Positions 41,877 to 57,914 of a stretch of DNA of 64,000 nucleotides are shown here, piece after piece. Below the pieces are notes generated by a model. That model searched no databases. It saw nothing but the letters and a program-made list of their open reading frames with translations, and was not told the origin of the DNA. The position numbers and the translations under genes are program-made. Each line of letters begins with the position of its first letter. The stretch's first letter is position 1. This DNA is from Apophysomyces variabilis (Eukaryota > Mucoromycota > Mucoromycetes > Mucorales > Mucoraceae): positions 124,001-188,000 of the forward strand of contig MZZL01000138.1 in the NCBI GenBank assembly GCA_002749535.1. The letters are read 5' to 3'.

Positions 41877-42100
41877 GTTGATGTCCTAGAATTCCTTGGC
41901 TGTCAATTCCCAAGTTCAACCCCGGAAAGCGGTCATTGACCCCTCCCCCTCTTGCAAAATTTTGATCGTCACAGCGGCTATTCAAAAATTGAAAAATCAT
42001 GCCATTCCCTCCGGTTGTACTTCTACTTTTTTTTGCGGAAACATTTGCACTGCTCGAAACCCGTTGTATTCGAGTGGCGCAAATTTCTTTGCAAAATACT

Positions 42101-42112
42101 GTAATGCGAACC
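42101..42112. repeat. Left copy of 12-base target-site duplication
   Basis: GTAATGCGAACC directly precedes the 5S-like segment and is repeated exactly at 44138-44149 after the LINE 3' end. This is the expected scar of target-primed reverse transcription. Confidence 0.75.
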
Positions 42113-42196
42113 GAAGCTACGGCCATACAAGTACGAACGCACCGGATCCCGTTCGATCTCCGCAGTTAAGTGTAGTCTGGCACCGTCAGTACTAGC
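42113..42196 (+). pseudogene. 5' segment of 5S rRNA fused to a LINE
   Basis: The segment contains CTACGGCCATAC, CACCGGATCCCGTTCGATCT and CGCAGTTAAG followed by GTCAGTACTA at the spacing seen in eukaryotic 5S rRNA (about positions 1-83). The sequence then leaves the 5S pattern and becomes LINE coding sequence at about 42197. The C-box end of the internal RNA polymerase III promoter (GGATGGGTGACC type) is missing. It is therefore a truncated 5S copy, not a working gene. Box-A-like AGTTAAG is present. Confidence 0.72.
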
Positions 42197-43071
42197 GAAA
42201 AGCCCAATTCATCCGGCCCAAGTTGGAATATGGTTTAGCAATTGTCTCGTTCACCAAAACTCAGCTGAAGGAACTCGAAAGTACTCAAAACACTTGTATT
42301 CGTATGATCTATGGTGCCCATCCCCACTGCGAAACCAAAGTGATGCGACACATGGCCAAGCTACCTAGCCTGCAAGAGCGAACAGCCATCCTACAGGCGA
42401 AATTCCTACGTCGTGCCCGACATCTTCCGGAGGACGCCTTACTCACCACACTTCTGCCCTTACTTCTCTCTTCCTCGACCTCCCACTGGAACAAACTCTG
42501 CCGCACACCCGTCTGGCAAAGCATCCCGGTACCACAAGAAGAAGCCTCGACCAAGGTTTTCCGAGCGACAATCAGACAATACCTGCGCGACACACATACG
42601 ACGATAATATCGGCCCCTACTGGCGCACGGACCCTAGCAGCATGCCGACCCACGCTATGCATAGACCCGATTCTGTGGTTACCCATGACGAGACGAGATC
42701 GCAGCAGGTGTATCCGCTGGCGACTAGCATGGCTCCCCGGTGGCAAGAAAAAGGCCTGCATTACCTGTGGCTATGTGAACCTCACCAAGAAACACGCCAT
42801 TGACTGTCTCCGTATGCATAACCGCCTAGTCATTACCCGCCAACAGACTGCCGATCCAATGTCCTTCTGTCTCAACCTCCTCCCGCATTCGATCCCCAGA
42901 TCTGCCCGCCGTCGCCAACAGATCTGCAAAATATGGCCTATTGTATGCACAATTCTTGCCGAACTCGATGCTCACCAGCATCCGGGATCAAATCTGCGAC
43001 AATACCATGACCCAGATCCGAGAAAGGCCCTGCTGGAATGGCTCGATGCTCTCCCTCCTCAACCAGGCTAG
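42196..43071 (+). pseudogene. LINE ORF2 C-terminal fragment
   Basis: An open frame without its own start, entering from the 5S junction: FIRPKLEYGLAIVSF and QNTCIRMIYGAHPHCETKVM, the thumb-like region typical of LINE reverse transcriptases, then KACITCGYVNLTKKHAIDCL, a CX2CX8HX3C zinc motif found at the end of many ORF2 proteins. It ends LLEWLDALPPQPG. Finger and palm domains, endonuclease and any RNase H are absent because of 5' truncation, so the piece cannot move on its own. Confidence 0.75.
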
Positions 43072-44137
43072 GCACATCAAAGCTGACTCTCTCTTCTTCC
43101 CTCTTTTTTCCTTTTTTCGTTTCCTTTCTATTTCAATATATGTTTTTCTTTATTCCTTCATATTCCTTTTGCCTCACTCCTTCGACCTTTTCCCTGCCTC
43201 ATCCGCAGGGTTTTTATTCCACCTTTTTCTTTTTGAGCGGTCTCGAGCAAATATGTCTGTCACAGACGCTGTGTTCAAATAGAGACGTTAAATAAAACCA
43301 ACNCCTCCCACTGGAACAAACTCTGCCGCACACCCGTCTGGCAAAGCATCCCGGTACCACAAGAAGAAGCCTCGACCAAGGTTTTCCGAGCGACAATCAG
43401 ACAATACCTGCGCGACACACATACGACGATAATATCGGCCCCTACTGGCGCACGGACCCTAGCAGCATGCCGACCCACGCTATGCATAGACCCGATTCTG
43501 TGGTTACCCATGACGAGACGAGATCGCAGCAGGTGTATCCGCTGGCGACTAGCATGGCTCCCCGGTGGCAAGAAAAAGGCCTGCATTACCTGTGGCTATG
43601 TGAACCTCACCAAGAAACACGCCATTGACTGTCTCCGTATGCATAACCGCCTAGTCATTACCCGCCAACAGACTGCCGATCCAATGTCCTTCTGTCTCAA
43701 CCTCCTCCCGCATTCGATCCCCAGATCTGCCCGCCGTCGCCAACAGATCTGCAAAATATGGCCTATTGTATGCACAATTCTTGCCGAACTCGATGCTCAC
43801 CAGCATCCGGGATCAAATCTGCGACAATACCATGACCCAGATCCGAGAAAGGCCCTGCTGGAATGGCTCGATGCTCTCCCTCCTCAACCAGGCTAGGCAC
43901 ATCAAAGCTGACTCTCTCTTCTTCCCTCTTTTTTCCTTTTTTCGTTTCCTTTCTATTTCAATATATGTTTTTCTTTATTCCTTCATATTCCTTTTGCCTC
44001 ACTCCTTCGACCTTTTCCCTGCCTCATCCGCAGGGTTTTTATTCCACCTTTTTCTTTTTGAGCGGTCTCGAGCAAATATGTCTGTCACAGACGCTGTGTT
44101 CAAATAGAGACGTTAAATAAAACCAACAAATTTAAAC
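42197..44137 (+). mobile_element. 5'-truncated non-LTR retrotransposon (LINE) 3' end, with an unmerged duplicate
   Basis: 42197-43302 carries the C-terminal end of a reverse-transcriptase ORF and a pyrimidine-rich 3' UTR ending in TTAAATAAAACCAAC. After an N at 43303, bases 43304-44127 repeat 42479-43302 without any difference I can see. The real element is probably about 1.2 kb. It ends in the short A-rich tail AAATTTAAAC before the 12-base direct repeat at 44138. Together with the 5S head and the two direct repeats this looks like one retrotransposed unit. Family within LINEs not determined. Confidence 0.75.
43304..44127 (+). repeat. Exact 824-base duplicate of 42479-43302
   Basis: Starts directly after an N and shows no difference I can find from the preceding copy. 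It contains the last part of the LINE frame (stop at 43896) and the 3' UTR. Zero divergence plus an N at the joint points to two contigs with an unmerged overlap. Confidence 0.8.
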
Positions 44138-44149
44138 GTAATGCGAACC
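44138..44149. repeat. Right copy of 12-base target-site duplication
   Basis: Same 12 bases as 42101-42112, immediately after the LINE tail. Confidence 0.75.
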
Positions 44150-56364: not shown

Positions 56365-57914
56365 ATGGGGTCCATTCGAAGTTTTTCACATATACTGTTG
56401 GCACTACTATGCATCACGGCGGTCTGCTTTTTACTAGTAGTGACTGGACCATGGAACAAACAAACCCTTCGGTTGGCAGATGATAAAGCAAAAGAAAAAA
56501 TAGAACCATTACCATTACAACAACAACATCAGCAACAACAACAACAAGAAGCATTTTCCACAGAGATTTGTTACAATGAAATTGTTTATCGTAATACCGA
56601 TCCATATCACAACGGAGCACATCTTAAGTTCTGGCAGCATTTAAGCTCGACAGCCGCTATTGCGTATCGCCGAGAATGGCAAGCGTTTATGAAGCAACAA
56701 AGACAGCCCAAAGGACGACAGCCAAAAGGGCACGGTATTGTCCTTGTCGCAGGCAATCACGATACGTTTGCACGTGCATTAACAACCATCAAAGTTTTAC
56801 GGCATTATCAATGCAATTTACCCATTGAAATCTGGCATCTTCCCGACGAACAGCCTTCCGCAGCCTTCAAAGAAGAACTGGATAAACTGGGTGCTCTCCC
56901 TCGCGATCTCGCCAAGGGCTCCATACGACCGGTACAACAACGACGACCAGATGCTGTTAAACAGTTGGGTTTACTCTTTTGCATTCTTCATTGTTTTAAC
57001 TGACCAAAAAAAACAAATAATATCTTTTAAGGTTTCAAATCAAGGCTGCGGCTATTCTGAACGCTGGATTCAACCATGTTATATATCTTGATTCAGATAA
57101 TATTCCCACCCGAGACCCGTCATTCTTATTCGATACTCCCGAATACCAATCAACAGGTGCCATTTTCTGGCCAGACTTTTGGTAATACATAACCCCGTAT
57201 ACTGACCAAGAGAAAGAGAAAAAAGAAGAAGAAAAGATTTAATGTGCATTTCTTTTGAAATATACACAAACAGGAAAACGCACGGGGACAACAAAATATT
57301 TGAGGTATTAAACATCGAATGCCAAGATGAATGGGAACAAGAGGTTAGTGCTAAAAACGAGCAAAAATTGTAACATGATGTCTTACACAAACAAATCGCC
57401 TTTTTGTTTTAGTCTGGTCAAATGGTCATTGATAAGCAACGATCATGGGGGCCTCTTCAATTGGCCTGGTACATGCAGCGCCATAGTGAAGTTTATTTCC
57501 AATTCCTCAATGGAGACAAGGATACGTTTAAGTACGCTTGGAAGGTTTGTGGAAAAAGAAACAAAAACGGAGAAAGCTATATGAAGATTGACATGGTGAC
57601 TAAAAAAAAAAAAAAAAAAAAAAAAAAACACTGGGACAGCCCTACCCGAAAAAAANNNNNNNNNNNNNNNNNNNNNNNNNNNNNNNNNNNNNNNNNNNNN
57701 NNNNNNNNNNNNNNNNNNNNNNNNNNNNNNNNNNNNNNNNNNNNNNNNNNNNNNNNNNNNNNNNNNNNNNNNNNNNNNNNNNNNNNNNNNNNNNNNNNNN
57801 NNNNNNNNNNNNNNNNNNNNNNNNNNNNNNNNNNNNNNNNNNNNNNNNNNNNNNNNNNNNNNNNNNNNNNNNNNNNNNNNNNNNNNNNNNNNNNNNNNNN
57901 NNNNNNNNNNNNNN

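Follow-up and report, generated by a model that had tools for sequence, protein, structure and literature searches.

The window analysed here is a stretch of 64,000 nucleotides of the Apophysomyces variabilis genome (C30:124001-188000; the assembly measures 38.7 Mb and comprises 126 contigs). Within it, at the right end of a short host repeat, lies an insertion composed of the first part of a 5S rRNA followed, in the same orientation, by the 3' part of a LINE (Table 1). A 12-bp direct repeat, GTAATGCGAACC, brackets both parts without a mismatch, an agreement expected by chance at both edges with a probability of about 6e-8 (4^-12, by arithmetic). An earlier note, made from the letters of this DNA, had described the 5S head, its length of about 83 positions and the direct repeat at the two edges, all of which have been borne out. 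The two halves of the duplication are situated on opposite sides of a scaffold gap, and this lends support to the join made there as well.

Table 1. Features of the chimeric insertion in the window, and related elements elsewhere in the assembly
Feature	Position	Strand	Remarks
Host repeat, ~80-bp hairpin, MITE-like	42024..42103	+	Arms 42024-42058 and 42069-42103; element at its right end
Left target-site duplication, GTAATGCGAACC	42101..42112	+	Its first three bases also belong to the hairpin repeat, at the end of the latter
GA	42113..42114	+	Two bases ahead of the Rfam 5S start; the A also in two other 5S fragments
5S rRNA, positions 1 to ~83	42115..42197	+	RF00001 for 42115-42191; 42192-42197 by eye
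AAAA at the 5S-LINE joint	42198..42201	+	LINE homology from 42202
LINE 3' part, 5'-truncated	42202..43302	+	Frame 42199-43071 continues the reverse-transcriptase ORF
Single N, assembly gap	43303	.	Between contig ends that most likely overlap
Second, identical copy of 42479-43302	43304..44127	+	824-base exact overlap, offset 0
3'-terminal 70 bp common to the tRNA-like SINE	44058..44127	+	Also at 43233-43302
LINE tail, last bases (AAATTTAAAC)	44128..44137	+	Read from the sequence
Right target-site duplication, GTAATGCGAACC	44138..44149	+	Exact match to the left one
U6-LINE chimera, same LINE family	C95:1684872-1687411 (L016, L025, L075)		Complete U6; duplication of 17 bp; LINE interrupted by a 776-N gap
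SINE family, ~340 bp	L060-L062, L064-L072, L080-L083		tRNA-like head by eye; last 70 bp common with the LINE

The 5S head is the single gathering-level match of cmscan over the whole window (RF00001, 44.2 bits, E 6.6e-6). By eye, the likeness continues past the end of the Rfam match to 42197 (GTCAGTACTAGCG), which corresponds to about position 83; the head is in sense relative to the LINE and starts at 5S position 1. A switch into the LINE without any gap had been claimed. The joining of 5S to the LINE 3' part stands, but homology to the other genomic copies of the LINE starts at 42202, and the four A's lying in between make the joint near-direct rather than strictly gapless. The genome search for this joint, proposed as a check in the earlier note, found it once in the assembly.

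The family search of the genome for 5S rRNA, in which 47 of 1142 candidates were scored, gave two matches (the window and C91:1369117-1369224), and neither this search nor those by DNA and by motif found a complete 5S gene in the assembly. A 23-base 5S motif, with up to three mismatches allowed, also occurs twice in the genome. A degenerate 5S fragment of 42 bits was observed on the minus strand of L008 (1463-1571), and a fragment of about 41 bases, obtained from the DNA search with the 5S head, on the minus strand of L012 (1501-1541; C80). The latter is flanked by a 10-base near-repeat with one mismatch and may be a lone retrocopy of a 5S fragment; no LINE tail was recognised near either fragment, nor any clear duplication.

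The LINE looks doubled, most likely through a failure to merge two contigs that have 824 identical bases in common, on either side of the N at 43303: the stretches 42479-43302 and 43304-44127 agree in all 824 bases, and the second begins right after the lone N. The second copy is thus most likely an unmerged contig overlap and not biology. A true tandem of the LINE was considered and rejected in favour of an assembly overlap. Consequently, the real insert probably measures about 1.2 kb (2,025 minus 825). A 976-base exact overlap around one N, like that of the window, doubles a SINE locus at C39:3155-4457 (L068), and a terminal overlap is likewise seen at the 776-N gap that interrupts the U6 copy of C95; none was found at the 259-N gap at window position 57656, the N at window base 20 being left out of this check as too near the edge.

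With 42197-43310 as query, 40 of the 55 candidates were scored, which gave at least 45 genomic matches. No Pfam match was obtained for the frame 42199-43071; RVT_1 is carried by a longer copy of this LINE family, and a related element at C92 possesses both RVT_1 and endonuclease domains of the APE type (all by Pfam). The organisms named among the best 120 of the 399 protein matches of the C92 element are Rhizopus, Lichtheimia, Absidia, Umbelopsis, Circinella, Mucor and Parasitella, in keeping with a host belonging to the Mucoromycota. A hairpin in the LINE tail was not significant (z -1.33). Clear duplications at both ends, with one mismatch allowed, were counted from the flank table in 13 of the 23 LINE copies, after candidate repeats at C70, C87, C75a, C72b and C109 had been discarded as spurious; in the other 10, an end is missing, decayed or rearranged, or no tail is recognised. 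Thus, copies other than that of the window have duplications of their own. Two LINE copies, at C95:3077719-3077970 and C87:1333843-1334094 (L031 and L032), have the same 5' flank and truncation point but differ in their 3' flanks, as though recombination or misassembly had taken place.

The final 70 bp of the LINE also form the 3' end of a SINE, the body of which has 20 genomic matches; as two copies are each split in two and one pair of matches stems from the assembly duplicate in C39, these amount to about 17 copies. Box A- and box B-like motifs are visible by eye in the SINE head. ARAGORN (10 loci) and Rfam (11 loci) found no tRNA in the SINE, and the head is accordingly named tRNA-like from these by-eye motifs alone. 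One member of the family, L062, was examined as a third chimera and rejected: it is a SINE with an internal insert of about 350 bp, and it has no Rfam match.

LINE and SINE also have in common their place of insertion. The 100-bp flanks of 39 copies (23 LINE and 16 SINE) were compared all against all; the SINE at C76:632k, the C39 duplicate's second half, fragments lacking a tail and matches without an extracted locus were left out. At E values up to 1e-3, 31 of the 39 5' flanks resemble the 5' flank of another copy; the 3' flanks, used as control, gave none (0 of 39). The eight 5' flanks without a partner are those of C83, C70, C94, C76a, C76b, C95b, C75a and S_C81. The 5' flanks of LINE and SINE stop just before GTA, and this recurrent insertion point is exactly where the chimera has its left edge. 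The repeats used as targets are of more than one kind. The type A repeat end has 26 genomic matches, seven of which carry, by coordinates, a LINE or SINE of the family, and the hairpin of the window, a 35-nt inverted repeat with 71% complementarity, has 32, many of them partial; one copy each of the type A end and of the hairpin end, with no LINE or SINE beside it, was read (L092, L093). Moreover, hairpin arms are found paired on one strand at spacings of 1.1, 4.0 and 4.5 kb, which suggests longer parent elements. From the TA at their ends, a Tc1/mariner-like nature of the target repeats may be guessed.

A second chimera of the same LINE family has been identified in C95, where a U6 snRNA (Rfam, 80.3 bits) adjoins a LINE copy. 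The order is a 17-bp repeat, a complete U6 with T8 at its end, a stretch of 6-11 unclear bases, the LINE, its tail and the same 17-bp repeat. The family search of the genome for U6, in which 48 of 3570 candidates were scored, gave three matches, two of them in addition to this chimera. From the start of the transcript to the end of the T run, the U6 of the chimera does not differ from the gene at C95:19969, and it shows two differences from the U6 of C116; TTTATAAA, located upstream of both U6 genes, is absent from the chimera, in which the upstream likeness ends. Identity confined to the transcript, together with the missing TTTATAAA, indicates that it was the RNA and not the gene that was copied. 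As for the LINE truncation sites, the breakpoints of the two chimeras, the only such events, differ, and the 5S and U6 fusions are therefore independent. The recognised small-RNA heads are thus two among the 23 LINE copies, and Rfam scans at E up to 0.1 found none in the other 21, nor in the 11 SINE copies covered of the 16 in the flank table. These scans comprised 37 loci (20 + 17), with U6 as the sole match; together with the window, all 23 LINE copies were covered.

The joint insertion of 5S and LINE, as put forward in the earlier note, is sustained by three observations: one duplication surrounds both parts, the 5S abuts the favoured site of the family, and the independent U6-LINE chimera has its own 17-bp duplication. 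The window therefore displays the features of an RNA/LINE chimeric insertion as defined in PMC13174262, made in a single event, with a 12-bp duplication at the family's usual site, and several of those listed for bipartite LINE chimeras in PMC2104539: the parts have the same orientation, are joined directly save for four extra A's and are limited by 12-bp direct repeats. The 3' part is a 5'-truncated LINE, as other copies reach further 5'. The 5' part of the listed chimeras is a cellular RNA copied in full; this holds for the U6 of the C95 copy (model 1-105), but not for the window, where 5S ends near position 83.

The chimera is probably one retrotransposition product, formed by target-primed reverse transcription passing from the LINE RNA onto 5S RNA. 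An APE-type LINE would cut the small hairpin repeat at its end, nicking the bottom strand immediately ahead of GTA, the cut being presumably the work of the LINE's own endonuclease, and reverse transcription would begin on the LINE's own RNA, at its 3' tail. About 1.1 kb further on, the cDNA would move onto a 5S rRNA at about position 83 and run to the 5' end of that RNA, and the sealing of the other side would produce the 12-bp duplication. A 5S part starting at position 1 is what would be expected had the reverse transcriptase run to the RNA's 5' end; its 3' truncation counts against the proposal, as the enzyme must then have entered internally or used a fragment. The four A's at the 5S joint and the 6-11 unclear bases at the U6 joint also speak against a clean template jump, and in both chimeras an assembly gap lies inside the LINE; the lack of the resident 5S gene in the assembly is a further weak point. 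The originally proposed jump of the reverse transcriptase is upheld in so far as a single event is concerned; that the fusion itself was made by such a jump, and not by prior RNA ligation, is what we infer.

In prior ligation, a piece of 5S severed near position 83, which may have borne a short A tail, would have been joined to a LINE RNA fragment, and the hybrid would then have served as a single template for reverse transcription. A truncated 5S followed by four A's agrees with it, the C95 joint, where U6 is complete and retains its T run, suits end-to-end joining, and RNA ligation is named beside template switching for sense-oriented chimeras in the portions of PMC13174262 dealing with their origin. 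On the other hand, there was no sign of a pool of 5S fragments, and both models accommodate the unclear bases of the U6 joint; the data are compatible with ligation and template jump alike, and ligation is regarded as a rather unlikely route. It is very improbable that the 5S-LINE joint itself is a misassembly: the region does contain a mis-resolved gap and the LINE is repetitive, but the gap is 1.1 kb away from the joint, which lies inside a single contig, and both sides agree in the duplication and in the recurrent insertion site.

The LINE could also have been inserted, in two steps, into or beside an existing 5S gene or pseudogene, and target-specific LINEs that use small-RNA genes are indeed described, such as the U2-targeting Utopia in the sections of PMC4640811 devoted to it. 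Nevertheless, this is scarcely credible here. Insertion into a 5S gene was rejected because one duplication encloses the 5S as well as the LINE; in addition, the repeat directly to the left of the 5S is the usual insertion site of the family, and no remainder of the 5S, which the earlier note had asked to be looked for, follows after 44149, the window having one Rfam match. A young 5S-headed SINE-like family, also suggested at the outset, would find a precedent in the SINE with the same LINE tail, proof that this tail can mobilise short elements, but it has not been supported in this assembly and is highly doubtful, given that the joint is single-copy and that the head of the existing SINE is tRNA-like and not 5S. 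Box C of 5S occupies about positions 80-97, so that a head stopping near 83 has lost most of it, a loss which fits the single copy. Neither multiple copies with the same joint nor, with box positions as generally given, an intact Pol III promoter (boxes A, IE and C), both of which characterise 5S-derived SINEs, are thus present.

The LINE/SINE machinery seems, on balance, to recognise approximately CAAAATACW followed by GTA (by eye, with insertion between the two) at the ends of inverted-repeat or MITE-like elements, transposon ends serving as docking sites, and to pass onto 5S and U6 often enough to yield two chimeras among 23 LINE copies. The wider context, in which a LINE/SINE pair has a recurrent docking site and has given rise to two chimeras with small RNAs, is of more interest than the single chimera. 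The trio of LINE, SINE and target repeat constitutes a compact system in which to test target choice and template jumping, and the recurrent insertion point gives the chimera events unusually clear left edges. Among the papers listed in the literature searches, which for the most part did not extend to subscription journals, neither a U6- or 5S-LINE chimera in Mucoromycota nor a LINE targeting MITE ends was found. Chimeras of this type have been catalogued mainly in mammals; their range now takes in a fungus of the Mucoromycota and a LINE that has a 3' tail of its own, which suggests that LINE reverse transcription is generally given to passing onto small nuclear RNAs.

SINEs derived from 5S rRNA (SINE3 type) have a 5S head and a LINE-like tail, as does the element of the window, which differs from them in its single copy and truncated promoter region. 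The mammalian U6/LINE-1 and 5S/LINE-1 chimeras, as presented in the relevant parts of PMC13174262, resemble those reported here in that a truncated LINE bears a small RNA at its 5' end and the two were inserted in a single event with a target duplication. In mammals, U6 is complete and in sense, as in the C95 copy, whereas the 5S part usually lies in antisense and is cut off at positions 46 and 90, as against a sense orientation and an end near 83 in the present case. Unlike LINE-1, moreover, the present LINE has its own 3' tail, common to a SINE, and a recurrent insertion site. Regarding target-specific APE-type LINEs of the Tx1 and R1 clades, to judge from the portions of PMC4640811 concerned with them, an APE-type endonuclease (here in the related element, from Pfam domains alone) and a repeated target are held in common, the target here being the ends of short inverted-repeat-like elements, with 8 of 39 copies lacking a shared 5' flank. 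In Magnaporthe grisea, the chimeras (MINE and related) likewise consist of a non-coding RNA 5' part and a truncated LINE 3' part with short direct repeats, and a SINE with the 3' end of the LINE exists there too; according to the sections of PMC2104539 that describe them, 31 of 33 are WEIRD-MGL and the contrast with mammalian U6 is stressed, so that the RNA is mainly WEIRD there and 5S and U6 here. The RNA-LINE chimera is therefore a known kind of accident, in mammals as in Magnaporthe, found here beside an unusually choosy family of elements.
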